A stretch of DNA of 64,000 nt from Anaerolineae bacterium (GTDB lineage Bacteria > Chloroflexota > Anaerolineae > Aggregatilineales > Aggregatilineaceae), in contig JAFGHR010000038.1 of assembly GCA_016930015.1 (NCBI GenBank), forward strand, positions 16,405 to 80,404, written 5' to 3'. The notes beneath the pieces were generated by a model that saw nothing but the letters and a program-made list of their open reading frames with translations, ran no database searches and was not told where the DNA came from. The translations under genes were made by a program, and so were the position numbers. The number at the start of each line of letters is the position of its first letter. Positions within the stretch are counted from its first letter, which is position 1. Shown here piece by piece: positions 34,393 to 54,749 of the stretch.

Positions 34393-35697
34393 TCACGGTT
34401 CGTCATCTATACGCTCATCCAACGCTGACTCGTCCGGTCCACTTTCACCATTTTCAGGGGGCGATTCGGCTGTTGGCTCAACCATTGGTAGTTCTTTCGT
34501 GTCGTCATCGGCGACCGGCTGCGCCTGGTGCAGCCCGATTGTGGTTTCAGCCAGAATCGTAGGACTGGGTGGTTCTTCGGGTTTTACATCCTTCGCCCGT
34601 TCCATTAAGACCACGACTGCACTGATGTTATCTTCGCCACCGCGCTCGTTCGCCAGATCGATCAGGGCATGGGCGATCGCGTCCGGGGCATCGCTCGTTA
34701 TCGCGATCGCGGCAATTTCGGCTGATGATACGTGGCGCGTCAAACCATCCGAGCACAGAATCAACCGGTCACCTTCGGTCAAACTGCGGCTGTAAAGGTC
34801 GGCATCGGTATCGTCTACCTGGCCCAGTGCCCGGTATAACACGTTGCGCATGGGATGGACGGCGGCTTGTTCGGGCGTGATGTGGCCGGATGACAGCAGT
34901 GCCTCGACAAAACTGTGATCATCTGTAATCTGGTTGATCCAGCCTTCATGCCCGTCAACAAGGTAGGCACGGCTGTCACCTACATGGGCAATGATCACGC
35001 GGTTATCACGAACAAACGCCAGTGTCATAGTGGTGCCCATCCCGTGTAATTCCGGGTGATCGTCGGCGCGCTCCATCACGGCGCGATTGGCCCGGCGCAC
35101 CGCCAGCCGGAGTTTTTCGGACACTTCGTCTTCTGTCAGGTCAAACAGAGTCTCGCTGCCGCGCGCTTCACCCAGAAAATCAGCCTGGACCGCTTCAACA
35201 ACCAGGCGGCTGGCTTCCTCACCCGCCACAGCACCGCCCATACCGTCAGCTACCAGCGCCAGCACCACACCGTGACGCGCCCATTGGCCAACACGATCCT
35301 CGTTGTTTTCGCGCACACGCCCCACGCTGGTTCGCGCGCTGGTACGCGGCACCAGATTAAGCCGGTCTACGTCGTCTGGAACAGACAGCGTTGACCCACA
35401 CCCGACACAATAACTGCCTCGTGGGTGGTTCAAGGTGCCGCACCGCAAACAGGTAACCGGCGTTTCATCAATGGACGGGGGAAGCTTGGCCTTCGCAGCA
35501 CGCAAACGCTGTACGAGATCGGGCTCAAGACTATCTTCGCGTTCCTGGGCGTACCGGATCGCTTCTTCTACATGGCGGCGGCGGTGATGTATGCCACGCA
35601 CGACAGGCGGTTGATCCAGGGTAAACCCACACTGGAAACAGAAAACCGCGCGTCCCAAATTCTCGTGTCCACAGTTCGAACACGTTTTTGTCTCCAT
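34393..35697 (-). CDS. PP2C-family Ser/Thr phosphatase with N-terminal zinc ribbons
   Basis: CSNCGHENLGRAVFCFQCG and CLRCGTLNHPRGSYCVGCG; VRENNEDRVG...ALVADGMGGAVAGEEASR; VGDSRAYL; LCSDGLTRHV; GGEDNISAVVV. Confidence 0.93.
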   Translation of the reverse strand: METKTCSNCGHENLGRAVFCFQCGFTLDQPPVVRGIHHRRRHVEEAIRYAQEREDSLEPDLVQRLRAAKAKLPPSIDETPVTCLRCGTLNHPRGSYCVGCGSTLSVPDDVDRLNLVPRTSARTSVGRVRENNEDRVGQWARHGVVLALVADGMGGAVAGEEASRLVVEAVQADFLGEARGSETLFDLTEDEVSEKLRLAVRRANRAVMERADDHPELHGMGTTMTLAFVRDNRVIIAHVGDSRAYLVDGHEGWINQITDDHSFVEALLSSGHITPEQAAVHPMRNVLYRALGQVDDTDADLYSRSLTEGDRLILCSDGLTRHVSSAEIAAIAITSDAPDAIAHALIDLANERGGEDNISAVVVLMERAKDVKPEEPPSPTILAETTIGLHQAQPVADDDTKELPMVEPTAESPPENGESGPDESALDERIDDEP

Positions 35698-35905
35698 AGC
35701 CGTTTCTCCATCCATTCCGCGCCAGGTTTTTATACGATTTTACAGGCACCCCATGAAGGTGCAAGTTAATCTGTTCATGTACCGTTGACAGCGAGCGGAG
35801 AAAGCATCACGGAATCAACACACCTGGCACAGTTTCAGTTTGTCTCGTCTTGTGTCATAATGCGATCAGTATCGAATCGGTGTTTGGACAAATCAACCTG
35901 TTATC

Positions 35906-36973: not shown

Positions 36974-38080
36974 TCAATCTGCCATGTCGGGAAAACTATC
37001 AACAGCAGGCGGTTTGTCATCGCCTGACTGTGGATAGTTGAGCGGTGGCTCGGACGGCAGCGGCCCTTCGACGCCCATCATGCGCCGGATGGCGTCTAAC
37101 TCGTCTTGAGAAAGGCCGCTGTCACCAAATGCATGTGTAAACGCGATCTGTTGAAACGCGATACCTGCCATATTGGGCATCGGGATCGCACCGCGCGGCG
37201 CACGGGAGCTGAAACGAGCATTCCCCTGGACAAGCAAGCTCACTCCAAACGCCCCCACACCAACCCATTGAATGAACGTCAGCCGCTCGTCCAGCAGCAG
37301 GTACGACAGGGTGACCGCTACCGCGATTTCAGTGATGGCCAGCAATGTCGTTTGCAGGCTCCCAAAGTGTTTCACACCAGCAAACAACGTCAAGCGCGAC
37401 AATGCCGTCGAAATCGCTAACGCCAGGATCGCCCACATGGTATCATGCGACTGCGGCACCCAATGCAAGTCATAGGCGCCGCGTGCCATAACCACCACCA
37501 CAGCCATCACGGTGATCACGTATAATGTCACCGTTTGCGGCGGCATTTCATACAACACGCGCTGGCTTAGAATCAACGTTCCGGCAAACAACAACGCATT
37601 ACCCAGCATAAACCCAACACCAAGCCATTCCACCTGGCCATGCCCACCGCCGCTGATGAGCATCAGACCAAACAGCGCCAGCAGCACGCGCACACCCGTT
37701 CGCCAACTGAGTGATTGGCCACCCAACCGCGCCAGCAGGACCGCAAACAACAAATATGAACCGTTCAGGAGCTGGCTCATCGACGCATCAAGCCGCGACA
37801 GGCCGTTGTAATACATCAGCGACCCGATCCCGTTGACAGTCCCAACAACCGCGCAGCCCAGAAACCCCGCCAGATATATGTAGATGTACTTCCGCAGAAA
37901 AACCAGGTAGAGAATCCACAACAATGCAGCCGCCAGCGCCGTGCGAGTGGCAGCTACAGTAAATGGATCGGACCCACCGCGCAGTGCCAGTTTCCCAAAC
38001 ACAGGGGCCAGCCCCAGAAAAATGGGTGACATCAACGCCGCAGTCAGATTGGAATGGCGATCAGAGTCAAGATCAAACAT
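36974..38080 (-). CDS. EamA/DMT-family transporter
   Basis: Ten hydrophobic segments, two EamA-like halves (PIFLGLAPVFGKLALRGGSDPFTVAATRTALAAALLW; SYLLLDERLTFIQWVGVGAFGVSLLVQ). Confidence 0.85.
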   Translation of the reverse strand: MFDLDSDRHSNLTAALMSPIFLGLAPVFGKLALRGGSDPFTVAATRTALAAALLWILYLVFLRKYIYIYLAGFLGCAVVGTVNGIGSLMYYNGLSRLDASMSQLLNGSYLLFAVLLARLGGQSLSWRTGVRVLLALFGLMLISGGGHGQVEWLGVGFMLGNALLFAGTLILSQRVLYEMPPQTVTLYVITVMAVVVVMARGAYDLHWVPQSHDTMWAILALAISTALSRLTLFAGVKHFGSLQTTLLAITEIAVAVTLSYLLLDERLTFIQWVGVGAFGVSLLVQGNARFSSRAPRGAIPMPNMAGIAFQQIAFTHAFGDSGLSQDELDAIRRMMGVEGPLPSEPPLNYPQSGDDKPPAVDSFPDMAD

Positions 38081-38109: not shown

Positions 38110-39378
38110 TTAGCTGTCGTGTTGAATTGGAGAGATTATTCTGGGTCGCTCGAGCGGCAGATTGATATAAAAAGTGCTGCCGGGCAACCGGTCTTCATCA
38201 CAGCCGTCACTTTCCACCCACATTTTACCGTGATGCGCATTAATAATACCCCGGCAAATTGCCAAACCCAACCCCAACCCGCCGCCACGAAACGCCGTTT
38301 TGCTGGTAGAGTGAAGCTGCGTATCACCCGCCGTATAAAACCGGTCAAAAATACGCCGCTGGTCATCCGGGTTGATGCCGATGCCCGTATCATGAACGCT
38401 GATTTGAACCCGTGTTTCTTGAATCTCAGCCTGCAACGTGATCGTGCCGCCGTCCGGCGTATATTTGATCGCGTTGCCAAACACATTACTAAACGCAAGG
38501 TCTAGCAGCAGTTCATCACCGAAAATTTCGGTAGGCCATGTCTCCGGATCAACCTTCACCGTCAACTGGCGCTGCTCGCTCGCCTGCTGGTAACCCTCAA
38601 TCACCCGCTCGATAACCTTTTTCAGATTTGCGGTCCCAGGCTTGAGATCAACACGACCGGACGCGATCCGGGACACGATGACGATCTCGTTGATGACCAC
38701 GCTTAGGCGTTCAATCGAATCGACCAGCCCAACCAGGCAGGCACGCGCCTCCGGGTTTTGAGCCATCACCTGTTGGATAACATCCAACGACTGTACAAGT
38801 CGGCTGTAACCATAAACGGTGGTGAGTGGGGTACGCAGCTCGTGCGCCGTAAGTTGAATAAAATCGTCCTTGATACGATCCAGGCGCCGTAGTTCCTGGT
38901 TGCTCGCTTCGAGTTCGCGGACGTTATCCTCAAGCCGGGCCACAAGCTCTTCGCGGTACGCCTGCTGCGCCGATTTGAGTGCGGACACATCTACCCGGTC
39001 TTTTTCACCGTGTAAATAACGCTCAATCTTGTCGATGAGTGTTCCCAGGTTAACCGGCTTGGTGATGTAACCGGTCACCCCGGCCACAAATGTTTTTTCG
39101 CGCTCGAGCGAGTGGCTTTGAGCTGTCAGCGCCACAATTGGCACCGATTCAAGTGTTGGGTCCGTCCGCAGCCGCACCGCGATATCACGCCCGCTTAGAT
39201 CGGGCAGGTTGATATCGGTCAGGATCAGATCGGGCCGGTGAGTCTTTGCCAGATCAATACCCTCTAACGCCCGGCTGGCGCTCAACACGTTATACCCTGC
39301 CGTGACTAAAAAACGCTCAATTAACCGGCGGCTGGCATCGTCATCTTCAATGTATAAAATTGTAATCTGATTAACCAT
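38110..39378 (-). CDS. REC - HisKA - HATPase hybrid sensor kinase
   Basis: MVNQITILYIEDDDASRRLIERFLV...LILTDINLPDLSG; FIQLTAHELRTPLTTVYGYSRLV; LLDLAFSNVFGNAIKYTPDGG; DTGIGINPDDQRRIFDRF. Start refined to 39378. Confidence 0.93.
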   Translation of the reverse strand: MVNQITILYIEDDDASRRLIERFLVTAGYNVLSASRALEGIDLAKTHRPDLILTDINLPDLSGRDIAVRLRTDPTLESVPIVALTAQSHSLEREKTFVAGVTGYITKPVNLGTLIDKIERYLHGEKDRVDVSALKSAQQAYREELVARLEDNVRELEASNQELRRLDRIKDDFIQLTAHELRTPLTTVYGYSRLVQSLDVIQQVMAQNPEARACLVGLVDSIERLSVVINEIVIVSRIASGRVDLKPGTANLKKVIERVIEGYQQASEQRQLTVKVDPETWPTEIFGDELLLDLAFSNVFGNAIKYTPDGGTITLQAEIQETRVQISVHDTGIGINPDDQRRIFDRFYTAGDTQLHSTSKTAFRGGGLGLGLAICRGIINAHHGKMWVESDGCDEDRLPGSTFYINLPLERPRIISPIQHDS

Positions 39379-39465
39379 TGATTTCTGTTCACCGTTTACA
39401 AGGAAAATCCCTCGCACCAAGCGATGCCGCACGCGTTAATGCACATCGATACGAGAGCGGATGTG

Positions 39466-41112
39466 CTACAGTGTTTGAATGATACTTTGCAGCAGATCCT
39501 CATCAAGAAAACTACCTTTTTGTAATAATGCAGCGATCTGGTTGCTCAGGCGCCCACGTTCACGCGGAGTTAGCTCTTTGGCCGTCAGCACAATCACCGG
39601 AATCCGGCACAGCGCTTCATCGGACTTAAGGATATTGATGACTTGAAACCCATCCATACCCGGCATCATCAGATCGGTAATCACGACGTCCGGCTGCATC
39701 TTCCGCACCAGTTCAATGCCGCTGGCACCATCCGTTGCGATCTCGACCTTGTACGAACCGCGCGTTTGCAGAATTCGACTGATCAACCGGGCGGCGTCGG
39801 GATTATCTTCGATCACTACCACGCGTCCACCGGTTGTTTCGACCTGTTCCAACGCGGAGAGTATACCTTCCTCTGGCAGCGATTCCACCTGGCTGCTGTG
39901 TGAAACATCCACGTGCCGCGCCCATTGATCGCCCAAAATATGTTTTTCTACCGGCAGGGTATGGCCGGAGCAATTGACAACCACCACATCGTCAGGACGG
40001 ATATCACCATTGCGCACCATTTTGATCAACCCGGCAAACGCAACTGCCGTAGCTGGTTCAACCGACAACCCGTCACCGCGCGCCAGCAAGCGCATGACTT
40101 CAAACGCTTCTTCATCGCTGGCGCTTTCGGCAGCGCCGCCGTATCGCTGCATCAACTGCCACAACCACTCGTATGCCCGGCCCGGACGCCCTGTGCTGAG
40201 GGTCGCGATCACGGTTTGAGGGTTATCAACCGGGACGGCGATACGCTGCCCGGCTTTAAACGCATGGACCATTGGGGCGCATCCCTGCGATTGTACAATA
40301 CCGATAGAGGGCACTTTGTCCGCCAGCCCCAATTCGATCAGCTCTTGAAACCCCTTGGCAACACCAATCGGCCCCATACCCCCGCTGACACCCTGAATAA
40401 ACCAATCCGGCGCGCGCCAGCCCAGGTCTTCGGCGATTTCGTAAGCCATCGTTTTCATGCTTTCAATGGCCGCGATGCTCTTGATGCCGCGATCCAAAAA
40501 GAGGTTGCGGCTCTGGGCGAAACGGGCGGCGACCGCTTTCGTTTCATCATATGTGCCCGTCACTTTGATGACTTCGGCACCATATAATGCCACTTCCCGC
40601 ATTTTTTCGCCGGGCACCTGGCTCGTCAAAAACGCCCATAACTTGATCCCGGCGCGCGCTGCATAGGCAGAATACGCAATCGCGACGTTTCCGGTTGACG
40701 CGACGACCGCTTCTTCAATGCCCAACTCACGCAGCACTGATATCGCAACCGATGCCTGACGATCTTTAAATGAGCCGGTCGGCCCCTGGCGTTCATCTTT
40801 GATATACAGGTTTTTTAGCCCCAGCATGACCGCCAGGTTCGGCACCTGGAGCAGCGGCGTCCCACCTTCACCCATGCTCACAATGTAACGCGGGTCCAAC
40901 AGTGGCAGCAGCTCATAGTAGCGCCATAAACCGGGTTTCCGCCGGGCGAGCTGTTCGGGCCAGCCCGCTGCCAGCAGCGCTTCGAGATCATAACGCGCTT
41001 CCAGGATGTTTTCACCACAAACAGGGCAGGTGGTCTGCCTGCCATCATAGGTCGTCACATGTCCGCAGTTTGTGCAGTGAAGTTGTACTTGTTTGGCAAC
41101 TGGGTCATTCAA
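39466..41112 (-). CDS. Threonine-synthase-like PLP enzyme fused to C-terminal REC (response regulator receiver) domain
   Basis: Zn ribbon CTNCG...CPVCG; PLP Lys motif GPTGSFKDRQASVAISVLRELG; STGNVAIAYSAYAARAG; then VVVIEDNPDAARLISRILQTRG...QPDVVITDLMMPGMDG...PVIVLTAKELTPRERGRL...LLQKGSF. One uninterrupted 548-aa frame; REC is approx 39466-39828. Confidence 0.9.
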   Translation of the reverse strand: MNDPVAKQVQLHCTNCGHVTTYDGRQTTCPVCGENILEARYDLEALLAAGWPEQLARRKPGLWRYYELLPLLDPRYIVSMGEGGTPLLQVPNLAVMLGLKNLYIKDERQGPTGSFKDRQASVAISVLRELGIEEAVVASTGNVAIAYSAYAARAGIKLWAFLTSQVPGEKMREVALYGAEVIKVTGTYDETKAVAARFAQSRNLFLDRGIKSIAAIESMKTMAYEIAEDLGWRAPDWFIQGVSGGMGPIGVAKGFQELIELGLADKVPSIGIVQSQGCAPMVHAFKAGQRIAVPVDNPQTVIATLSTGRPGRAYEWLWQLMQRYGGAAESASDEEAFEVMRLLARGDGLSVEPATAVAFAGLIKMVRNGDIRPDDVVVVNCSGHTLPVEKHILGDQWARHVDVSHSSQVESLPEEGILSALEQVETTGGRVVVIEDNPDAARLISRILQTRGSYKVEIATDGASGIELVRKMQPDVVITDLMMPGMDGFQVINILKSDEALCRIPVIVLTAKELTPRERGRLSNQIAALLQKGSFLDEDLLQSIIQTL

Positions 41113-41113
41113 T

Positions 41114-44100
41114 TTACCGCTTCTCCTGATGGTTCCCCAACTGAATCTCCACCTGGTTTAACAAATGGTGTTCATCCACATCGTCTTTACGATACACATC
41201 TACGTGTTGCAGCGAATCACGTTCTTCGGCGCTGATGTCTTCGGCGGTGAGCACCAGCACCGGAATGCGAGCCGTCCGGTTGTTGGATCGCATTGCCTTT
41301 AATACTTCAAACCCGTCAATCTCTGGCATACGCAGGTCCAGGATCACCAGATCGATCGGTGATGCCGTCTGCTGAATGATGTCCAGCGCCTGCTGTCCCG
41401 TCGTCACCTGCAATACCTCGTAGGTGCCAAACGTTTCGAGCATCTCACGGAACACACGGATCGTTTCCGGCTTGTCGTCCACGAGCAAAATCCGCTGACG
41501 GGTGGCTTCAGCTTCGGCCTGTTGGACTGCCGTGACCAATTGTTCGCGCGTAAACGGCTTGATCAGGTAATTCGACGCCCCCAAACGGTAACCGCGCTCC
41601 ATATCGGCGTCTATGCTGCATACAATGATCGGCGTTCGGAAGGTTGGCTCAGCATCTTTGAGATGCGCTAACAAGTCCCAGCCCTGCTGTTCGTGCATGG
41701 CAACATCCAAGAGTATAACACGAGGTTGGTAGGCAACGGCTAACTCTTCCGCGTCTTCCAACCGGGTGACACCGATCACCTCGTACCCTTCGCGTGCCAG
41801 ATACTTCCGGTACAGGTCGATCGCTTTAACCTGTTCCTCAACAACCAACACAATCCGGCTGGCTGGTGGTGCAGGGGCACTCTCCTCTACCGGTTGGTCA
41901 CTGTATTCTTCATGCACGTCATCGCTGGCCCCGCCTTCGTCGGGTTCGACAGCATCTTCTTCTGGTGGTGGTGATACCGGGATCGAAATGCTGAAGGTTG
42001 ATCCGACGCCGACTTCACTCTCAACCCAGATGCGCCCCCCCTGAAGCTCCGTGAGCGATTTCGCCAGCGGCAGCCCCATACCGGTACCTTCAACGCGGCG
42101 CGTCAAGGAATTATCGACCTGCTGGAACGCCTCGAACAACAGCGGCATATCTTCTTCAGCGATACCAATGCCGGTATCGGATACCGAGACGTGGATAACT
42201 GGCTGGCCTTCCTCCGTTGTCGGGAAGGCCGTCAGCGTGACGCTGCCTTCGTTGGTGAACTTGCTGGCATTTGATACCAGGTTGAGCAGCACCTGTCGTG
42301 TGCGGAACTCGTCACCATACGCGTCGGGCAGATCGTCCGCTATTTCTGTGTACAACCGGAGCGACTTCTCACGCGAGAGGCCAACGGCGCTGGACATCAC
42401 GCCTTTGATCACCTCTTGCAGCTTAAAATAGGCAAAGGACAGCTCCATTTTGCCCGCTTCGATCTTCGCCTGGTCAAGAATATCGTTCACCAGGCCCAAC
42501 AGGTGGCGACCACTATCATAGATCGTCTGCAAATCCTCTTCCTGGGCGTCGGTCAGTGGGCCGTCGATACCCTTCAGGATCACGCGCGAGAAGCCAATGA
42601 TTGAGTTAAGCGGCGTACGCAGCTCGTGACTCATCGCGGCCAGGAAGTTTGTTTTCAGGTGGTCAACCTCAAGCAGCCGCACGTTCGCATCCTGAATTTC
42701 GCGCAGCAGCCGCGAGTTTTCGATGATCGCTGCCAGCGAACTGCTCAGGGTTTGGAGCAAACGTAAGTCATTTTCGTCAAATGCGTTCACTTCGTTGCTT
42801 TCACCCACCAGTACACCCACCAGCACACCCACCGCCTGAAGTGGCACCGCGATGACGGAGCGGGTATTTTTGTTGGATGGCAGACGGCGGGGATCGTTGG
42901 ATAGATCATCAATGATAACGGCCTCGTTGTGACGCGCCACCCAACCAATCAACCCGCGATCAAGCTCAATCGATGACAGATCGGTTTCCGCACCCACAGC
43001 ACCCACGTCGGCGCCTTTGACCATGTACTCACCGCTGGCATCAGGCAAAAAGATACTGGCGCTGGTCAGGTTCATTGTGCCGCGCAGGGTATTCACGACC
43101 TGGTCGAGCGTTTCATCCAGGTCGATAGCGGTCGCGGCTGCCGTTGTCACGCTGAACAAAAACGCCATCTCGTCGGCCCGCTGCTCAGAAACCTCAAATA
43201 ACCGCGCATTGTCAATGGCGGTTGCCACCAGGTCGGCCAGCGAGCGCAGCGCATTTGCATCATCATCGGTAAATGCACCAGGCTGGTTACTCTGGACATC
43301 CAGCGCGCCCACGATCTGGCCGCGTGTGATCAGTGGCAGTGCCATTTCGGAGCGTGTATTCGGAAGATACGGATTAAATTTGTGCACTATCTTTGCATCG
43401 GCGGTGTCAAGCGCGATTTGAGGCTCACCTTTTTGTGTAACCTGCCCGATCACCGAATCTGATCCGACCAGCAGGTGGTGCCGGATGCTCAAAAGCTGCT
43501 GCCCGGCCTCACCGGTTGACGCCACCAGATCGGCCCGTGCGTTTTCGTCGTTGACCAAAAACACCTGCACGTGGTCATATTCAAAGGCGTCGCGGATCAT
43601 GTTGATCACCTGCGACAGCAGTTCATCCAGCCGCAAAATCGTGGTAACCGCGCGGCTGATTTCAGCCGATATGCTCAACTGGCGTGCTCGCCGCTGCGCC
43701 TGCTGGAACAGCAGCATGTTTTCAAGCGATGTGGCCGCCTGGTCAGCCAATGACTCGTACAATCGTTTACTACCCGTGTTTAACGAGAGATGCCGGGGGA
43801 AGCCCAACAAGACCATGCCCAGCGATCGACCCGCTGACTTGAGTGGGATAAAAATCGCCGCCCGGATCGCCAGAGCTTCGAGCGCTTGTTTGGCGTCATC
43901 ATCCAGTGTTGGCGCTGTGGTTATATCGTCGATCCACGTGATATCGGGCGACATCATAACCGACCACAGCGGGAACTGCCGGGTACTATAACGTGTGCCG
44001 CTCAGATCGTCGGCCTGGTGAGCGCTCCAGCTTGCCATCACTTCAACGGCGGCATACGACATATCCGGCACTTCGGCGTGCAGCAGGTACAACAAGCCCT

Positions 44101-47100
44101 GGGAAACATCCAGCAGTTCGGCGTGTTGGATAAATGCCATCAGGACGTCTTGCGCGGCCTGGGCATTGGCTATTGCGCGGCTGATGTAATACAGGGCTGC
44201 CGTATCCTGGAGCGCGTCTTCGGTACGTGCCAGCAGCCGCTGGTTTTCAATCGTAATCGCGGCCTGGTCGGTCAGTGTGGACAACAAACGCCGTTCTTCC
44301 ACAGAAAATACACGCGGCTGCTTGTACCCCACGACCAACCACCCGACAGCCTCACCACGCACGCCCAGCGGAAAACTGCTGATCGCCGCCAATTCGAGCG
44401 CGTTCAGGCACGCTGCTTCCGCATCATCCGGTTGGTTTGCGTCCGGAATTCGCATCTCCTGCGTTAGTAAAGGCTGGAAAACCGATACATTACACGTGTC
44501 TTTCAGTTCAGATGGTTGGCTGGCGGCGATATACATGGTTTCGTGGCCCTCAAAATCATCATTTCTCAAAATGATATAGGCCGCATCAGGGAATAACACG
44601 TCAAGCTGCCAAAGCATCACTTTCAGCAGTTCGGACATATCAGAAACATGCGAGATCGAGCGGCTGGCTTCATACAACAAGGTTGTTTCGCGCAAACTGT
44701 CTTGCAGCGCACGCTCTAGCTCTTGCAGATCACTGATGTCTTGAAAGGCGCCAACGGCGGCGGTAATGTTTCCGTCACGGTCACGGATAGGCGCCACATT
44801 GGCCAGCAGGGAAATCCGGCTGCCGTCCGGATGGATGACTATCAGGTCGTCAACCAGCACCGGTTCCCCGGTGGAAAAAACGCGGGTCAGCGGCCATTCC
44901 TGGCTGGAATAAGCCATCCCTGTATCACTATGAACAATGGGGTATGATGCGGAAACTTGCGCGGCATCTTCCGCCTGCGCCAGCGGCCCCACCAACTCCA
45001 GCAGCCGTTGATTCGACAACATCACGTCGCCGGTGGGGGTAGCTACCATGATGCCGGTCGGCATGGTATCAACGATAATCTGCAATTCCTGGCGCTGGCT
45101 CTCGGCCTGATCAAACAAGCGGCGGTTTTCAGTAGCAACGGCGACCTGGCTGGACAATGTAGCCACAAGCTGAACATCTCGTTCGTCAATATCAGGCGCG
45201 TCAAATGCCCGGCCAATTTGTAAGACACCCACTATGTCGCTGCCAAGACGAACCGGCATTGCCAGATGTTTGCCATAGTATTGAATGGTTTCGTCCAATG
45301 CGCCGGTGGACGGCTGATCGTTTACCTGGTTGACGATGATCATTTTTCCGCGCTGAACCGCTTCAGTCAGCGCCATCGGGGCCTGTACATCGACATGATC
45401 GGGCCAATCGGTGTGAGACGCGACCACGCGCTGAATCCGCACGCCGTCCCCGGTTAGCAGTCCAAACCACCACCGGTCATAGTTGCCCGGCCCGGACACC
45501 GTCTTAAAGAGATGCTGAAGACCGGACTCGAAATCACTACCAATCTGACCGGCCAACTGACCGGCTTCGGCCAACGCCTGCGCACGGCGGGTTTCGGTTT
45601 GTGCTTCCTCGAACAGGCGTGCATTTTCGACGGCCAGCCCTACACGCCCGGCTAGAGTCTCCATCAGTATATAATCGTCATCTGTCAGTTCGCGATATCC
45701 TGGCATATCGACGACCAGCGTCCCGATCGTTTCACCACGAACCTGAATCGGCGTTTCGGTCTGATCGCCGGATAAAACCAGTTGGCCGTTGCCGAGTGGT
45801 TCCACCCGCAGTTGATCGTACACGTAGCCCGTCGGGATCGTGCCGCCGTGTTCTGCGTCATGCGACTGCCACGCCGATCGTGTTAGCTGGCGGTTGAGCG
45901 TGTTAATTTCCTGTACACGTTCCTGAGTCTCGGCCAGCAAGCGCGCATTTTCGATAGCAATCGCAATCTGATCGGACAGTACTTCAAACACCCGCACCAC
46001 GTCTTCATCAAATGCATCGGACTCCGTGCTTTGTAAGTCCAGCGCGCCGAAAACCCGATCTTCAATCTTGAGCGGCAGCCCCATTTCGGACCGGGTGGAA
46101 GGCAAGAACGGGTTGGGCTGCCAGGATACATCGGGTTTGCTTGTATCAGACGCGATGACAACCTGGCCGCGCGCCGTGACACGACCAATCAACGAATTCG
46201 AACCCACGCGTAACTTGTGCCCAAACTCAAGCAGTTGGCGCCCTGCTTCCCCGGTACTTTCGGTTAACACGGCATATTCACCCAGATTATCCAACATAAA
46301 AATCTGGACATGGTACACTGTGTCAAAACGGCGTCGAATCTGCCCAACCATTTCACGTAACAAGACATCGATATCGCGGATACTGGTCGCGATCCGTCCA
46401 ATCTCAGCCGCGATTTCCAGGTCACGCGCATGGTACTGAACACGCGCCTCCATGTTGTGGAACAGCGCGTCAACCATCTCGCGTGACTGCTCAAGTTCGA
46501 CAGCCATCCGGTTAAATGTCTCGGCCAATTCCACCATCTCACGCCCGCCGCTCGGCATGATCCGAAAATCAAGCTGACCTTCTCCTAACGCACGCGTGCC
46601 GTGTTGAAGCTGTCGGACGGGATGAATCACGCTTCGCCGGACTATCATGACAGCCGCCAGCCCAACCAACACGATCGCCCCTAACGCTACCCCCGCCGAA
46701 GACAGGAGTCCTTCCCACAAGGCTTGATCAATCGGGTCAGCCGGGATGCCAACAATAAAGTCCAACTGGAGTTCCGGGGCCTGCGAAATTGGCTGCGCCG
46801 CCGCGCGTGTCAGATACACCGCGCCATAACCTGGCACATCACGCCGTACCGTTTTGTCTAGCGGCACGTCATGCAGGTTGAGCGCTTCGATCGGCTTGCC
46901 TTTGTAAGTCGGATCAGAGTGGGCAATGATGTTTGTGTTGGAAAAAACAAGCGCCTCGAAAGCCACATTGGGGTTGGCTGCCACAAAGCTGGTGAATCCG
47001 TCCTCAAACTGGGCGAACATGATCGACACCAGCGACGCCATATTCAGGCTATCCGATGTCCTCTCAGGAGCAGAAACCTGGGTCATGAAAACGTCAAACG

Positions 47101-47284
47101 CTTTCATCGATTCCTGCAACGAACCGGCAATGGCCAGGCTTTGCTCACGCTTGGCGTCGAGCAGGGTATTGCGCTGGCGGACACCCTGCACAACCTGCAA
47201 CGCAGCGGCCAGCAGCAGCAAGGCCACAACTATGGTTACGATAATCTGGATTTGGATGCCTCGTTTACGTAGCATGGCGTTCAC
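41114..47284 (-). CDS. Giant multi-GAF hybrid histidine kinase (Cache/HAMP, ~7 GAF, PAS, HisKA, HATPase, 2x REC)
   Basis: HAMP-like SVIHPVRQLQHGTRALGEGQLDFRI; several LP(S/N)TRSEMxLPL GAF motifs; PAS followed by VGAFQDISDLQELERALQ; FLAAMSHELRTPLNSIIGFSRVI; LLNLVSNASKFTNEG; DTGIGIAEEDMPLLFEAFQQV; RIVLVVEEQ...; RILLVDDKPETIRVFREML. Confidence 0.93.
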   Translation of the reverse strand: MNAMLRKRGIQIQIIVTIVVALLLLAAALQVVQGVRQRNTLLDAKREQSLAIAGSLQESMKAFDVFMTQVSAPERTSDSLNMASLVSIMFAQFEDGFTSFVAANPNVAFEALVFSNTNIIAHSDPTYKGKPIEALNLHDVPLDKTVRRDVPGYGAVYLTRAAAQPISQAPELQLDFIVGIPADPIDQALWEGLLSSAGVALGAIVLVGLAAVMIVRRSVIHPVRQLQHGTRALGEGQLDFRIMPSGGREMVELAETFNRMAVELEQSREMVDALFHNMEARVQYHARDLEIAAEIGRIATSIRDIDVLLREMVGQIRRRFDTVYHVQIFMLDNLGEYAVLTESTGEAGRQLLEFGHKLRVGSNSLIGRVTARGQVVIASDTSKPDVSWQPNPFLPSTRSEMGLPLKIEDRVFGALDLQSTESDAFDEDVVRVFEVLSDQIAIAIENARLLAETQERVQEINTLNRQLTRSAWQSHDAEHGGTIPTGYVYDQLRVEPLGNGQLVLSGDQTETPIQVRGETIGTLVVDMPGYRELTDDDYILMETLAGRVGLAVENARLFEEAQTETRRAQALAEAGQLAGQIGSDFESGLQHLFKTVSGPGNYDRWWFGLLTGDGVRIQRVVASHTDWPDHVDVQAPMALTEAVQRGKMIIVNQVNDQPSTGALDETIQYYGKHLAMPVRLGSDIVGVLQIGRAFDAPDIDERDVQLVATLSSQVAVATENRRLFDQAESQRQELQIIVDTMPTGIMVATPTGDVMLSNQRLLELVGPLAQAEDAAQVSASYPIVHSDTGMAYSSQEWPLTRVFSTGEPVLVDDLIVIHPDGSRISLLANVAPIRDRDGNITAAVGAFQDISDLQELERALQDSLRETTLLYEASRSISHVSDMSELLKVMLWQLDVLFPDAAYIILRNDDFEGHETMYIAASQPSELKDTCNVSVFQPLLTQEMRIPDANQPDDAEAACLNALELAAISSFPLGVRGEAVGWLVVGYKQPRVFSVEERRLLSTLTDQAAITIENQRLLARTEDALQDTAALYYISRAIANAQAAQDVLMAFIQHAELLDVSQGLLYLLHAEVPDMSYAAVEVMASWSAHQADDLSGTRYSTRQFPLWSVMMSPDITWIDDITTAPTLDDDAKQALEALAIRAAIFIPLKSAGRSLGMVLLGFPRHLSLNTGSKRLYESLADQAATSLENMLLFQQAQRRARQLSISAEISRAVTTILRLDELLSQVINMIRDAFEYDHVQVFLVNDENARADLVASTGEAGQQLLSIRHHLLVGSDSVIGQVTQKGEPQIALDTADAKIVHKFNPYLPNTRSEMALPLITRGQIVGALDVQSNQPGAFTDDDANALRSLADLVATAIDNARLFEVSEQRADEMAFLFSVTTAAATAIDLDETLDQVVNTLRGTMNLTSASIFLPDASGEYMVKGADVGAVGAETDLSSIELDRGLIGWVARHNEAVIIDDLSNDPRRLPSNKNTRSVIAVPLQAVGVLVGVLVGESNEVNAFDENDLRLLQTLSSSLAAIIENSRLLREIQDANVRLLEVDHLKTNFLAAMSHELRTPLNSIIGFSRVILKGIDGPLTDAQEEDLQTIYDSGRHLLGLVNDILDQAKIEAGKMELSFAYFKLQEVIKGVMSSAVGLSREKSLRLYTEIADDLPDAYGDEFRTRQVLLNLVSNASKFTNEGSVTLTAFPTTEEGQPVIHVSVSDTGIGIAEEDMPLLFEAFQQVDNSLTRRVEGTGMGLPLAKSLTELQGGRIWVESEVGVGSTFSISIPVSPPPEEDAVEPDEGGASDDVHEEYSDQPVEESAPAPPASRIVLVVEEQVKAIDLYRKYLAREGYEVIGVTRLEDAEELAVAYQPRVILLDVAMHEQQGWDLLAHLKDAEPTFRTPIIVCSIDADMERGYRLGASNYLIKPFTREQLVTAVQQAEAEATRQRILLVDDKPETIRVFREMLETFGTYEVLQVTTGQQALDIIQQTASPIDLVILDLRMPEIDGFEVLKAMRSNNRTARIPVLVLTAEDISAEERDSLQHVDVYRKDDVDEHHLLNQVEIQLGNHQEKR

Positions 47285-49584
47285 TCGTCTGTTCTGTTGG
47301 CGGGGGGTTCTGGCGTTTTCTCATCAGGGGAAATCAACCGAATGGATGTAGTCGGCACTCGGAGCGCTAAGCCCAGTTCCCGCACGGCGGTTCGTAATAT
47401 ATGATCAACATCGGTCATGGCAAGGAACTTGCTCGAAATCTGGTTCACCAGCACCTCGCGCTGCGCTACACGCTGGCTTTGTTCCAACAAGCGGATATTG
47501 TCGGCTGTGAGCGCCAGGCGCGCGGTGAGTTCCAGCGCCGTTTGACGCACGTTACGGGTATACCGCCCTCTCGGAATCTGCCATTCGATAGCGCCCAACA
47601 CCTCGTCACGCAGCAAAATGGGGACGGCAAACACAACGATATCGCCGTCAAAACGTTCGGTAATCTGCCGGGCGCGCATAGCGTCTACCTGAAGCTCACT
47701 CCACCCATCTTCCTCAGACACAGCCTGACCAACCGCCGCCTGTAATGTTTCGGGGCCTTTAAGGCGCACAATATCTTGCCATGCGGATTGGGTCAGCATA
47801 CGGTTCAGGTTCTCGATATCAGCCATACGCGCGGTTGATTCGGCAAAAAGGGCCGCGTTCTCGATAGCAATCGATATTTGATCGGCCATGCCCTGAAACA
47901 ACTCAACATCACGATCATCAAACGCGTTGGGATCACGGCTTTGCAAATCCAATGCGCCAATAATGCGGTTACCACTGCGCAGGGGCAAGGCCATCTCTGC
48001 ACGTGTATCCGGCAAAAACTCATTACGCCTATGGATCGGATTCTCCGACGTGTCGAGCGCCACTACCGCATGCCCCGAAGCCGTGACGCTGCCGATAACG
48101 CTCTGGCTGCCGATCTCAAGGTAATGCCCACGCCGCAACAACTGCTGCCCGGTCACACCGGTTGAGGCGCGCAGGTTTGCGCGGCCCGTTTGTTCATCGG
48201 TGAGAAAAACCTGGGCATGGTATATCATGTCGAAACGCACACGGATCAGATCGACAACTTCTTCAAGCAGCGTATCCAGGTCGTGAATACGTGTGAGAAT
48301 CCGGCTGACTTCCAGGGTAGTTGCCAGGTTATGTGTACGCTGTTCCACACGATCTTCCAGTTCCGATATCGCGTTCAATAACTGCCCTGACATGGCACCG
48401 AAGGCATTGTTCAACACGCCAATTTCATCCTGGCGCACCATTTGGGGCAGTTCGATATCGAGTTGTCCGGCTGAAATCTGGCGAGCTGACTCCGTCAGGC
48501 GAATCAGTGGTCGGGCAATAACCAGGCGTGCTACAAACGCAGTCGCCAGGGCAAGCACTGCTACACCAAACCCAATCGCCAATACAAGAAACACGCCTTC
48601 TTCCAGGGCTTTGTTGTTGATCTGGTTCATTGGCGTTTCGGCCAGAATGGCGAATTGGGGCCCTTTGGGTACGGCGGCAAAGGTGTAAAACCCCAGTACT
48701 TCACGGTCCAGCAGCGTACTATCATAACGCGATACACCCGTTTGACCGCGCTGAGCCAGGAGGAACCCTTCAGAATCACTCGCGTCGACAAAATAGTCCT
48801 GGTCGTGCGCAGGAGAAGCCAGCAATCCCGCCGCGGTCAGGAGGTAAACATGCATATCCAGATCACTCTGTGGGAAATCTGCCAGCGATGAAAAGAGATC
48901 GGGTAGATACACATCATCTGTGGCCAGGACCAGATCCTGTGTGAACACCAGGTAACCGACACGGTACCCGGTCCCAGTCACATTCCAATCCGCTTCGAGC
49001 GCAAACACAACATCCACAGACGGATCACCAGCCGTATCCTGGTAAATATCCGTGAGTGTGTCCCACGTTTCAAGTACGTCTGCCGCGATGAGATCGTCGG
49101 CTGGTGTTTTTGCCCTATCAGGAGTTTCAGAGCTGAAGCGCACCACGCCACCAACTTTGGACACATCCATAACCGCATCACCACCCCTGGTAAGCAGCCG
49201 TACCCGTGAGAGTGAGTACAGGGTGTCCAGATAATGACGGAACGTGGATTCGGCTATCTGGCGGCGGCCAGCTTTTAGCTCATCTGACAGGCCGGTGGGC
49301 GCCACGTATAGATATTCAAGGATGTTCTGCTGGTCAATCGGGTTAGAGATCAGCCGCTCAACCTCGGAAACGAGCGTACGCATATCCTGTTCGGTCCGCG
49401 TCGTTTCTAAGGGGCCAAGCATTTCCAGGCGAGCTTCGTGCTCGTCACGGATCGCGGCATACCGGCGACTGACCGTCATTGGCACCAAAATGCTGAGTGC
49501 GGGCACCAGGATCGCGACCAGAAAGATCACGGTCAGCTTGGTACTGATGGACCAATGTAAAACGTTTAAGCGGCGCAGCACCAT
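47281..49584 (-). CDS. Membrane receptor: periplasmic sensor + HAMP + two GAF modules, no output domain
   Basis: MVLRRLNVLHWSISTKLTVIFLVAILVPALSILVPM...; HAMP LVIARPLIRLTESARQISAGQLDIELP; LPDTRAEMALPLRSGNRIIGALDLQSRDPNAF. Start likely 49584 rather than 49629 (removes a 41-bp overlap). Confidence 0.85.
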   Translation of the reverse strand: MVLRRLNVLHWSISTKLTVIFLVAILVPALSILVPMTVSRRYAAIRDEHEARLEMLGPLETTRTEQDMRTLVSEVERLISNPIDQQNILEYLYVAPTGLSDELKAGRRQIAESTFRHYLDTLYSLSRVRLLTRGGDAVMDVSKVGGVVRFSSETPDRAKTPADDLIAADVLETWDTLTDIYQDTAGDPSVDVVFALEADWNVTGTGYRVGYLVFTQDLVLATDDVYLPDLFSSLADFPQSDLDMHVYLLTAAGLLASPAHDQDYFVDASDSEGFLLAQRGQTGVSRYDSTLLDREVLGFYTFAAVPKGPQFAILAETPMNQINNKALEEGVFLVLAIGFGVAVLALATAFVARLVIARPLIRLTESARQISAGQLDIELPQMVRQDEIGVLNNAFGAMSGQLLNAISELEDRVEQRTHNLATTLEVSRILTRIHDLDTLLEEVVDLIRVRFDMIYHAQVFLTDEQTGRANLRASTGVTGQQLLRRGHYLEIGSQSVIGSVTASGHAVVALDTSENPIHRRNEFLPDTRAEMALPLRSGNRIIGALDLQSRDPNAFDDRDVELFQGMADQISIAIENAALFAESTARMADIENLNRMLTQSAWQDIVRLKGPETLQAAVGQAVSEEDGWSELQVDAMRARQITERFDGDIVVFAVPILLRDEVLGAIEWQIPRGRYTRNVRQTALELTARLALTADNIRLLEQSQRVAQREVLVNQISSKFLAMTDVDHILRTAVRELGLALRVPTTSIRLISPDEKTPEPPANRTDE

Positions 49585-49588
49585 AACT

Positions 49589-51289
49589 TTACTCCTCCGC
49601 TTCGTCCGCTGTGTTGTCAAGGTGAACACTGCCCAGCCGAATCTGCGTCTGGGTTGCGCCTAACGCCTTTTGGAACTGCGAAGCCGCCGTCGCAAGCAGT
49701 GAATGTAAATCGTTGCTAGTCTGTAGATGCGATGTAACCTGGCTGACCAACTGCTCGCGTTGTGCTGTCATCTGAGCTTGTTCGAACAACCGGACATTTT
49801 CCAGCGAGAGTGCCAGCCGGTCGGCCACCGCCTGGGCCAATTCCAGCGCATAGGGCACCCAACGGCGGTCACCCGTTTTGCTGAACTCGATCGCCCCTAA
49901 CAATTGGCCGCGCAGATGGATCGGGACACACAACACCTGTCTGTCACCGCGCTGCTCAAGCCGGGCCTGGCCATCGGTCACGGTTTCGTTTAACACCGTC
50001 GAAACGGACTCAGGAGATGTAATGCGGCCCTGATGCCAATCAAAGCCGGTCGTCATCCCCATACGTTCTTCAAGGTACACGCCCCAGGTCGCACCAACAA
50101 GCTGCCGGTTCAAGCGTGCCAGATCACGCCGGGTGGCTTCGATCTGGGCTGTCAGGCGATCATGTTCCTGGCGGCCATAATTCAGCTCGTCTACTTGCTG
50201 CCCACTATGCAGCACCATAGCCATATGATTGGCGATGGCCCGCAGCGCATCCAACACGACGGGCGTAAAGGTATCCGGCGTCGCGCTGTGAAGGTCTAAC
50301 ACACCAAACGGCAGCCGGTCACCGACCCGCAGCGGCAAAAGAAGTTCACTCCGGGTAGCGGGCAAAAAGCTGGTACGCTGTGTCTCTGACATATTCTCAT
50401 CGATCAGGATCGGGTCAATCTGGCGAAGCGCATCGTTGACCAGGTTGTACTCATCCGGCAGCAGCAGGCTGTCTTCCTCCAGCAAACGGCGTCCAATAAA
50501 CCCGGTGCTGGCCTTCAAAACGGCGAGTCCGCTGTCAGGATCGGCCAGGTAAACTTGCGCATGATACAGCCCAAACGTATCTCGAAGCTGCTCGACCGCA
50601 AACGTCAGCGCTTCATCGCTGCCATGTATGGCTGTGAGCGTCTGGCTGGTTTGCGCCGTCTTGCCGAGTAATTCCGACAGCATACGCTGCTGTTGGAGGC
50701 TGTATTGAATACCGCTTTTAAACACCCACAATATGGCCGAGTTGATAAACCCAACAGCGAGGAGAATGATAATGGTCGTGCGCACACCCTCAAGCGCTGT
50801 AATACCGGCGGGCGTGGGTTCCATATCCACCAAAACCTGAAATACACCGCCTACGACAACAGCCACCGCCAGCGTCAACGCGACTACCAGCAAGCCCGAC
50901 CGTCGCAGCAGTACACCGGCGGCAGTGAGTGGGGTGAGCAGGACTATGATAAACGGTGTGTCCATGCGATAGTCGGGGAATATGGTCAGCAGCGACACCG
51001 CCATGATATTGGTTACAAACAGGATGCGTGCCTGCTCTTGCCATCCACGCTGGATCAACCGGTGTGTTAATAACGCAAGCGCCAGGGTGACCGGGACAAA
51101 AAGCGTCGCAGCATCAATGTTGTCTGTGCTGAAACTATCAAGAAGCCACCATAACAACAACGGCAAAACAGCAAGGATGGTCCCCAGCCACATCGCGTTT
51201 ATGGTCAGCAAACGCTGTGCCTGCTGCCGTTCATTCGCGTCGTCGTATGCGTCGCTGATGCGGATATAACGTAGTATTCGTTCTCTCAT
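49589..51289 (-). CDS. Integral-membrane multi-GAF protein, no output domain
   Basis: N-terminal hydrophobic segments, then GAF (FLPATRSELLLPLRVGDRLPFGVLDLHSATPDTF) and second GAF-like (VLCVPIHLRGQLLGAIEFSK). Confidence 0.85.
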   Translation of the reverse strand: MRERILRYIRISDAYDDANERQQAQRLLTINAMWLGTILAVLPLLLWWLLDSFSTDNIDAATLFVPVTLALALLTHRLIQRGWQEQARILFVTNIMAVSLLTIFPDYRMDTPFIIVLLTPLTAAGVLLRRSGLLVVALTLAVAVVVGGVFQVLVDMEPTPAGITALEGVRTTIIILLAVGFINSAILWVFKSGIQYSLQQQRMLSELLGKTAQTSQTLTAIHGSDEALTFAVEQLRDTFGLYHAQVYLADPDSGLAVLKASTGFIGRRLLEEDSLLLPDEYNLVNDALRQIDPILIDENMSETQRTSFLPATRSELLLPLRVGDRLPFGVLDLHSATPDTFTPVVLDALRAIANHMAMVLHSGQQVDELNYGRQEHDRLTAQIEATRRDLARLNRQLVGATWGVYLEERMGMTTGFDWHQGRITSPESVSTVLNETVTDGQARLEQRGDRQVLCVPIHLRGQLLGAIEFSKTGDRRWVPYALELAQAVADRLALSLENVRLFEQAQMTAQREQLVSQVTSHLQTSNDLHSLLATAASQFQKALGATQTQIRLGSVHLDNTADEAEE

Positions 51290-53046
51290 GATGGGCGATC
51301 CTGACTTGTATCATCAGTATCGGCGTCCGGGCTGGAACCATTGCCGGGGAATGTGGGCGGCGCACCCGATCCGGGTGGGGCGTTATCCAATGATACAAGA
51401 CGGATTGCCGCCTGATCTGCCCCTAACGCTTCTCCCAGCGTGCTAAGGGCCGTACTGAGCACATCTTCCACAGCGGTCAGCCCCTGAAGCCGGGCTGAGA
51501 TCGTGTTGATTTCCTGTTCACGTTCGGCAGCGGCCCGCGCCTGTTCAAACAAGCGCACATTTTCCAGGCTGAACGCCATGCGTTCAACGACCGACTGCAA
51601 CATAGCGCGCACTTCGCTCTGATTGTGCGTGTCGGAAAGACTCACTTCGATGGCACCAACCGGCTGCCCGCGAATACTGATCGGCACAGCAATCACCTGG
51701 TCATCACCCGCTTCATGGGTAACAATACGGTTTCGGAGGGCAGCTTCGTGCATCGCCGGTGTCCACTCCACCGGCCCCGATTTCATACCCTCGCCGGATA
51801 CGTGAATGCCGGACTGATTAACATCCTGGGTGACCATGTATTCCTGCCAGGATCGGGCCGTAAGCTGGCGGTTGAGCCGTTGAATTTCACGCAGGTTCGT
51901 TTCACTTTCCAGGAACAAGCGCCGGTTCTGGAGCAAACCGCGCTGCTGGGATTCAAACAGGCGCGCATTTTGGATCGCCTGGCTTACCTGGGTGGCGATA
52001 ACACGCACAGCCTCAATGTCTTCCTCGCTGAAGGCATTAGGCCGTACACTGTGAATATTTAACACGCCGAATAAGTTTTCGCCGACTATCAGCGGTACGG
52101 CTAATTCTGAGCGTGTGTCTTCCAGCAATGTCACACGCTGGTAACCCATATCGACCAGGTTCCCAACGCACGTCAACTGGTTAGTGGAAACAGCTTCACC
52201 CACAACCGTTCGTGCCCCAAGCGGCACACGAAAACCCTGGGCCAGCAGCGACTGGCCGATATCGCCGGTGCTGGCAACCAGATTGGCATAGTCACGTTTA
52301 TCGTCAACCAACAATATCTGCACATGGAAGAACGCGAACCGGTCGCGGAGCAGGTCAACGGTGCGGCTTAACAATTCGTTCAGGTTTAGAATACGCGAGA
52401 GGGCCGAGCCGACTTCGGCGGCAGCACGTGTTCGGGTCACAGCCCGATTAGCACGTACCAGGCTGCGCTGCAAATTCCACGAAAAAATCCACAACAGCAG
52501 CGCCAACACGGTTAACAGCAGGGCGCTGACGGTTGTTTCGTAGAGCAGGTCCTCAAATGGTTCTGGTCCGGCTGATAACATATCTTCAGATTGAAGGTAA
52601 GCGGTGAACGGCAGCAACCCCCAGACAAACACTGTAGCGACCAGAATCGCCCAGGTGCCATAGGCCAATCCGATAAACGCCAAAGCGAGGGGAATGGTCA
52701 GCAGCGTCCGCGGAACAATACCATCGGTCAGCAGGCTAAACAGGCTTGTCCCCACCAGAAAAAACGTAACCGACAACTTAGCCCACCGGGCATGACCGCG
52801 CCGCGCCAGCCATAACGTGAGCAATGACCACACCAGCAATACCGGTGCCAACACATCGCTCAGTTTGGAAACGGCGCTTTCAGCCTCTACGTCCATGACG
52901 GCCATCACCCCCAATGAGAGAGCAAACAGCAGCCCCAAAAACGCTGTTCCACTACTCAATGTCAGTAGCAACCGGGTGCGTATGGCCTGATCTGACTCGT
53001 GGTACTTATGCTGAGCAACAAACAGGGTACGAAACAGCTTGATCAT
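51286..53046 (-). CDS. Integral-membrane multi-GAF protein, no output domain
   Basis: N-terminal hydrophobic segments; LLEDTRSELAVPLIVGENLFGVLNIHSVRPNAF; VIAVPISIRGQPVGAIEVSLS. 4-bp overlap with the neighbour. Confidence 0.85.
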   Translation of the reverse strand: MIKLFRTLFVAQHKYHESDQAIRTRLLLTLSSGTAFLGLLFALSLGVMAVMDVEAESAVSKLSDVLAPVLLVWSLLTLWLARRGHARWAKLSVTFFLVGTSLFSLLTDGIVPRTLLTIPLALAFIGLAYGTWAILVATVFVWGLLPFTAYLQSEDMLSAGPEPFEDLLYETTVSALLLTVLALLLWIFSWNLQRSLVRANRAVTRTRAAAEVGSALSRILNLNELLSRTVDLLRDRFAFFHVQILLVDDKRDYANLVASTGDIGQSLLAQGFRVPLGARTVVGEAVSTNQLTCVGNLVDMGYQRVTLLEDTRSELAVPLIVGENLFGVLNIHSVRPNAFSEEDIEAVRVIATQVSQAIQNARLFESQQRGLLQNRRLFLESETNLREIQRLNRQLTARSWQEYMVTQDVNQSGIHVSGEGMKSGPVEWTPAMHEAALRNRIVTHEAGDDQVIAVPISIRGQPVGAIEVSLSDTHNQSEVRAMLQSVVERMAFSLENVRLFEQARAAAEREQEINTISARLQGLTAVEDVLSTALSTLGEALGADQAAIRLVSLDNAPPGSGAPPTFPGNGSSPDADTDDTSQDRPS

Positions 53047-54749
53047 AGGTGCGATTTCTCCTGCGCTGTCTCAGAGGTTTGTTCGGAAAGCACGCCCAAT
53101 CGTATCGTAATTTCATGGGCGTCGAGGGCTTCCTGCAAATGGTGAGCCGCACGCTGCATGATCGCATCCACACCGGTTGCCGCTTGAAGCTCGGTGCCAA
53201 TGTCGTTGATTAATGCTTCGCGCTGGGCAGTACGTTGGGTTTCATCCAGCAGCCGCCGGTTTTCCATGGCCAGACCCAAACGCTGGCCCACGGCTTCGAT
53301 CAAATCCAGCGCCCCATCGGGAATTTCGGCCTGCGAATCGAGTTCGAACTCCATTGCCCCAACTACTTCGTCCCGCACAACAACCGGCAGCGCAACGACG
53401 CGGCGGCCATTGACGACATCGGTAATAACCGCATTCTGGCTGACGGCTTGTTCGAGGGTGGGTGTCCAATCCGCTTCAGCCAACACCTGTTCCGACACAA
53501 AATCGACGGTTAGCGCTGTCGCCGTTTCCTGTGTTCGGATGAAGTCTGACCATGCACGCCCTGTGAACTGGTATTTCAGCCGCTCAATCTCGCGCAGGCT
53601 GGCCTGAGTTTGCTGGTGGAGCGCTTGTTTTTCGCGCTCGCTGCGCCCCACGGCTTGATACAAACGCAGACCATCAACCGCCATGGCGATCTGTTGTGCG
53701 ATCGATGTCAGGACGGCGACATGTATCTCTTCAAAAGCATTGGCATGCACACTCTGTACGTCCAGCGCCCCAACAACCTGGTCAGCAATAACTAACGGTA
53801 TCGCCAACTCCGTTCGGGTTTCGGGCAGCAAATCGTGTGAGTGGTAGACACTATCACGGCGCATATCCGCAATCAGCAGTGGTTCACGATTAATTGCTGT
53901 CCGGCCTACCACGCTCAACCCGCCAATATCCAATGCGTACGCCTGAGTCATCAGTTGTGCGCCGACAACGCCGGTAGCGGCCCGCAGTTCCATAGACTGG
54001 CTGTTCGGCGCCGCAAGGTAGAGCTGGACATGATAGATTGACTCAAACCGCTGCTGGATATGGTTCGCCGTTTCGATCAGGAACTCGTCAATATCCCCCC
54101 GTGAAAACTGGCCATTTGTTATCACATGACCCAGCTCAATCAGGTGACGAGACGTTTCTTCCAGGCTGATTTCATGCGTTGCCAGACGGCTGCCGCGCAT
54201 TACCAGCGTACAAAGTCCACCCAGCATCAGCGTCCACAGCGCCAGGGCGACAAATACCGCCAACCGTTCATCCTGGGCAGCCCCGCCCAGGTCGCCATAA
54301 TCCTTAAAGGCGGCGGCGGTCGCCACCAGCAAAGCATACCCGGTAATCATGGCGTTGATGCGCTCACTGAGCAGCAAACCGCCGAGCACAACCGCCATCC
54401 ATAACACAGCCCAACCGCGCAGCGATCCCCAATCTCCCACAACCAGCAGCAGCGTGCTTTCAACCAGCAGCCCTGTGACCAGCACGCCTGCGCCAGAAGC
54501 CAGATCTCCCCGCCGGGTAAGCGCTATCGCCGCCACACTGAACAATAGCAGCGCAGCGGTAACAAGGCTCAAATACGGCTGTTCCCAGCCCAACAGTTCC
54601 AGAACGGTATCAAAAGCGCCCGGCAGCGCCAGCGCCAGGCGTGATACGACGAACATCACGGCAACGGCATAAATAGATATCGCTCGCCACCGGGGAAACG
54701 ACGCAGGATAGGGTGACAGTGAAAATACTGAAGCGAGAAACTTTCGCAT
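53043..54749 (-). CDS. Integral-membrane multi-GAF protein, no output domain
   Basis: N-terminal hydrophobic segments; LLPETRTELAIPLVIADQVVGALDVQSVHANAF; VVALPVVVRDEVVGAMEFELD. 4-bp overlap with the downstream gene. Confidence 0.85.
   Translation of the reverse strand: MRKFLASVFSLSPYPASFPRWRAISIYAVAVMFVVSRLALALPGAFDTVLELLGWEQPYLSLVTAALLLFSVAAIALTRRGDLASGAGVLVTGLLVESTLLLVVGDWGSLRGWAVLWMAVVLGGLLLSERINAMITGYALLVATAAAFKDYGDLGGAAQDERLAVFVALALWTLMLGGLCTLVMRGSRLATHEISLEETSRHLIELGHVITNGQFSRGDIDEFLIETANHIQQRFESIYHVQLYLAAPNSQSMELRAATGVVGAQLMTQAYALDIGGLSVVGRTAINREPLLIADMRRDSVYHSHDLLPETRTELAIPLVIADQVVGALDVQSVHANAFEEIHVAVLTSIAQQIAMAVDGLRLYQAVGRSEREKQALHQQTQASLREIERLKYQFTGRAWSDFIRTQETATALTVDFVSEQVLAEADWTPTLEQAVSQNAVITDVVNGRRVVALPVVVRDEVVGAMEFELDSQAEIPDGALDLIEAVGQRLGLAMENRRLLDETQRTAQREALINDIGTELQAATGVDAIMQRAAHHLQEALDAHEITIRLGVLSEQTSETAQEKSHL

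Follow-up and report, generated by a model that had tools for sequence, protein, structure and literature searches.

The window, by which we mean the whole stretch of DNA that was analysed (64,000 nucleotides), contains a gene that joins a Zn ribbon, a PLP fold-type II module (PALP) and a receiver domain (REC) in one polypeptide. Kinase genes flank this fusion gene at both ends, as the earlier note had described. The features of the locus are as follows.

36974..38080, minus strand: EamA-family (DMT) transporter, 368 aa (Pfam PF00892)
38110..39432, minus strand: REC-HisKA-HATPase kinase, 440 aa, directly downstream of the fusion gene and recurring downstream in many loci
39466..41112, minus strand: PALP-REC fusion gene, 548 aa, with a TTG start and Pfam domains
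39517..39822, minus strand: REC, residues 431-532 (Pfam PF00072 Response_reg, E=2.3e-19)
39673-39675, minus strand: phospho-acceptor Asp480 of the fusion REC
39829..39960, minus strand: linker, residues ~385-428, of low model confidence
39967..40881, minus strand: PALP (PLP fold-type II), residues 78-382 (Pfam PF00291, E=6.8e-75)
40765-40767, minus strand: PLP Lys116, in GPTGSFKDR
41017..41076, minus strand: Zn ribbon, Cys13/16/29/32, cysteines kept in 123/123 fusions
41114..47284, minus strand: giant hybrid kinase, 2056 aa (HAMP, PAS, several GAF, HisKA, HATPase, REC, REC), directly upstream of the fusion gene
47287..53070, minus strand: three successive GAF-containing ORFs (47287-49659, 49595-51310 and 51292-53070), upstream of the kinase

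The earlier note had placed an uninterrupted 548-aa frame at 39466-41112. Its coordinates are correct and its strand is the minus strand, which forms a single open frame with no stop or frameshift between the PLP and REC parts; the plus strand of the same interval contains many stops. The Zn ribbon, PLP-lysine and REC motifs named in that note are all present in the protein, where the REC switch residues are Glu435-Asp436, Asp480, Thr510 and Lys532. The TTG start lies 1 base past the TAA that ends the upstream kinase gene and a GGAG occurs within the end of that gene, and translational coupling is therefore plausible. An AlphaFold2 model (50 sequences) reached a mean pLDDT of 83 and a pTM of 0.69, with pLDDT below 50 at residues 385-394 and 396-427, and the linker between PALP and REC is predicted to be disordered. 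Given this pTM and the disordered linker, the model offers no reliable PALP-REC interface through which a signal could pass.

A conserved fusion of single origin

Checked across Chloroflexota, the PALP + REC architecture proved to be present in many genomes. Full-length fused homologues, well beyond what chance would give, turned up when 299 class genomes were searched, with 49-68% identity along almost the entire protein, and a member of the fusion clade was found in 99 of the 299 (about a third, own genome included), as counted by a best match of E<1e-100 and with a few members cut by contig ends or frame-split. In a sample of the phylum, the fusion occurs in 41 of 399 genomes, 7 of which lie outside the class. 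PALP and REC also share one frame at 80/80 GTDB loci, these being the best 80 of 594 relatives; nearly all of them are labelled Chloroflexota, the only phylum that the systematic search covered, and one belongs to the isolate Levilinea saccharolytica KIBI-1. Two records labelled Bacteroidetes and Pleurocapsa minor (L083 and L093) carry the fusion at 62-63% identity, and because this identity is mid-range, they are probably misassigned Chloroflexota sequence. No plasmid record covers 80% of the query.

The window's genome is a draft in 132 contigs, which is the one circumstance that favours an assembly or annotation artefact, in which a missed stop would join two separate genes. Such read-through is ruled out by the scores of independent genomes in which the fused frame is open, and the shortened matches that we checked are explained by contig ends (four cases) or by a split inside an otherwise complete gene (L187 and L188), leaving an artefact with a negligible probability. 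Apparent kinase-PALP-REC fusions in two genomes, G096 (1784 aa) and G037 (1157 aa), were rejected as such; their N-terminal part has no Pfam domain and they are probably upstream frame extensions.

The fusion occurs in two forms, one of ~560 aa with one REC and another of ~715 aa with two RECs, and the window's genome has both: the short form is the window gene, and the long form, L004 (722 aa), sits on a different contig. In the latter locus (L004:1258-3423, own genome C61), a GAF-HisKA-HATPase gene comes before the two-REC paralogue and two solo REC genes come after it. A PALP tree built from 97 sequences (FastTree, midpoint-rooted) places all 75 fusions in one group that includes no stand-alone PALP (fusion node support 0.685), and one-REC and two-REC fusions are intermixed. 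The own-genome paralogue L005 clusters with the solved threonine synthases, and the fusions form a separate clade under the same midpoint rooting. The fusion family is conserved and of single origin, and the features that the earlier note had seen in one sequence, namely a PLP fold-type II enzyme, an intact REC in the same protein and adjacent kinases, hold for a single clade. Two outcomes that the earlier note would have counted against the fusion, a frameshift between its parts and its absence from other genomes, were not observed.

The receiver domain and neighbouring genes

All five REC switch residues (the acidic pair, Asp, Thr/Ser and Lys) are intact in 121/121 first RECs of the fusions. 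Of 81 loci examined, 76 have upstream sequence, and in 61 of these the gene directly before the fusion, in the same orientation, encodes a histidine kinase; some loci have no kinase directly upstream. The upstream kinases are typically multi-GAF proteins with REC-REC at the end, and their frames often overlap or nearly abut the fusion. A REC-HisKA-HATPase gene often follows the fusion in the 81 loci, and the order of histidine kinase then PALP-REC also occurs outside the class (L149-L151).

The nearest non-fusion REC to the fusion REC is the second C-terminal REC of hybrid kinases in 149/149 comparisons. In the REC tree, the first RECs of the fusions are monophyletic (121 tips, support 0.905), and the enclosing clade of 189 tips contains fusion RECs and those kinase RECs only (support 0.88). 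These results are most simply explained if the fusion acquired its REC from a kinase of the type encoded next to it, or the kinase its REC from the fusion. Given this kinship with the last REC of the hybrid kinase, the neighbouring kinase is the likely phosphodonor. The same kinship suggests how new regulators may arise, through the reuse of a kinase's receiver domain.

The neighbours of the fusion are mostly signalling proteins and do not make up a metabolic pathway. GAF proteins recur upstream across loci, and 50 of 81 loci have a co-directional EamA gene downstream, a link that is not universal. A ParA/AAA_31-like ATPase gene separates the GAF genes from the giant kinase gene in some loci (L052:2988-3776 and L050:15801-16613), and ParA-like frames were detected by profile in 11/81 loci. 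Substrate-binding-protein genes (NMT1/THI5-like; ABC_sub_bind) lie upstream of the kinase at L042:4021-5052 and L049:2296-3282. In the window, a 440-aa ORF at 34393-35715 resembles, by eye, a PP2C-type phosphatase that has a pair of zinc ribbons at its N-terminus.

It is conceivable that the PALP module is a ligand sensor or scaffold and not a catalyst, binding PLP and an amino acid, with the REC reading out this state or relaying phosphate to neighbouring REC or REC-kinase proteins. The predominance of signalling proteins among the neighbours and the presence of solo REC or REC-kinase genes directly after the fusion agree with such a role, and the domains associated with archaeal RECs may likewise serve as input instead of output (PMC5847659). 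However, a C-terminal REC fits either role, and the active-site residues kept in every fusion (below) are conserved beyond what would be expected of a pseudoenzyme. We regard a sensor or scaffold as unlikely.

Of the 8 genomes that have an ortholog of L049:10922-12223, 6 carry a stand-alone PRK08197-type gene in the same orientation as the fusion and 343-888 bp downstream of it. These cases (L049, L057 and L041, and genomes G517, G179 and G148; families f32 and f42) hint that in some lineages the fusion is connected with ThrC-type chemistry. They would also suit a fusion that acts as a regulatory partner of a stand-alone ThrC, in mixed assemblies or by adjacent action, and tunes it by phosphorylation. 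Most loci, the window included, have no ThrC beside the fusion, however, and the canonical ThrC of the own genome lies on a contig other than that of the window gene, ~10 kb from the second fusion copy. A partnership of this kind is thus quite improbable.

Substrate pocket and relation to threonine synthase

Active-site positions were assigned by alignment, in T. thermophilus numbering, and 123 fusions were compared with four solved enzymes. All 123 fusions keep the PLP lysine (position 61; Lys116 in the window protein) and the equivalents of Asn87 and Ser59, and all have Ser or Thr at position 317. Asn154, Ser155 and Arg160, invariant in the four solved enzymes, are replaced in every fusion: the Asn154 position is never Asn, Ser155 has become Gly throughout, and at Arg160 and position 242 small residues are found, with no Arg or Lys in any of the 123. 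Position 242 is basic in 3/4 solved enzymes and Ala or Ser in the fusions. The corresponding residues of the window protein (154, 155, 160 and 242) are Arg208, Gly209, Ala215 and Ser306. We take Arg160 and the arginine at position 242 to be the residues that hold the substrate phosphate in T. thermophilus threonine synthase; stand-alone PRK08197-type paralogues of the same class keep Arg at both positions. On alignment with ThrC, a check that the earlier note had named, the PLP lysine stands and pocket positions 160 and 242 lack their usual basic residues.

The protein scores 177.7 bits against TIGR00260 (thrC), above the cutoff of 167.1, and its highest-scoring NCBIfam model is that of the threonine-synthase-like family PRK08197 (NF006050), where it reaches 295.4 bits, below the curated cutoff of 303. 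The three other fusions that were scanned also fall below 303 (283.6, 290.1 and 235.5 bits). Unlike the fusions, stand-alone PRK08197 members such as L139 (583 bits) keep Arg160 and Arg242. Separate stand-alone ThrC-like genes occur in 20/20 fusion-bearing genomes examined; the best of these has the canonical motif NS..NP.R in 19 of the 20 genomes, and the twentieth (G009) has a PRK08197-type paralogue (L153) with the arginines kept. It is thus improbable that the fusion serves as the housekeeping enzyme.

Threonine synthase (ThrC; PDB 2zsj, 1uim/1v7c, 2d1f, 6cgq and 1e5x) shares the fold and the PLP-lysine motif with the fusion and provides its top matches by sequence and, for the predicted model, by Foldseek. 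An N-terminal Zn ribbon is common to the fusion and to the ThrC paralogues L001 and L005 of the same genome. Separately, we note that the ThrC-like PALP gene at L001:1384-3650 has a changed pocket motif, RNTGMNPYTLEGKKT, and that its adjoining gene is carbamate kinase-like by eye. The nearest solved structures and the score above the thrC cutoff are what could recommend the proposal of the earlier note, namely a genuine threonine synthase under phosphorelay control. Against it, the fusion adds a REC and lacks Arg160, a basic residue at 242 and the motif NS..NP.R, its PRK08197 score is under the cutoff, the PALP tree sets it apart from known threonine synthases, and every fusion-bearing genome examined has other ThrC-like genes. 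The name threonine synthase is thus not supported by the substrate pocket, and we consider a genuine threonine synthase very unlikely. To judge by the pocket residues, the substrate of the fusion probably differs from that of threonine synthase. A change of substrate on a ThrC-like fold is known from cysteate synthase (CapA2, PDB 9k3c), which resembles the fusion by a profile match (E=4e-23) and, unlike it, has no REC match. Since the thrC model is passed, automatic naming of such proteins as threonine synthase is likely despite the changed pocket and represents an annotation hazard.

Proposed function and significance

DNA, cyclic dinucleotides and protein partners are the targets of most response regulators. 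The attachment of REC to metabolic enzymes is nevertheless a recurring theme, and the archaeal cases are narrowly distributed (PMC5847659). In those enzymatic-output response regulators, as here, the REC is joined to an enzyme of metabolism, and a gene for a sensor kinase lies alongside (PMC5847659). The present fusion differs from the archaeal REC-enzyme fusions in its PLP fold-type II output and in its occurrence across many families of a phylum. We found no description of a PALP or threonine-synthase fusion with REC in the literature, although an earlier mention in Galperin's 2006/2010 census papers is possible.

On balance, we consider it somewhat probable that the fusion is a response regulator controlled by phosphorylation, whose PLP fold-type II output descends from the threonine-synthase superfamily and has an altered substrate pocket. 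Its recurrence in about a third of the sampled class genomes suggests that a metabolic enzyme is probably a direct two-component output. In such a pathway, the upstream multi-GAF hybrid kinase would sense a signal and autophosphorylate, and the phosphoryl group would pass to Asp480, either directly or via the kinase's own C-terminal RECs. The phosphorylated REC may then alter catalysis or the oligomeric state of the PALP module, which would act on an amino-acid-like substrate, possibly one that is moved by the EamA transporter. The conserved PLP residues are no proof of catalysis, and the PALP module could instead bind a ligand or a partner. More tentatively, and with some doubt, the output may be a PLP enzyme with an undescribed reaction, through which phosphorylation would trigger the production or removal of an amino-acid-derived metabolite moved by EamA.

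If this more tentative reading is true, the fusion would represent signalling by metabolic switching without transcription. A widely conserved PLP enzyme with its own REC would wire environmental sensing directly to amino-acid chemistry in the Chloroflexota, a phylum with little genetics.
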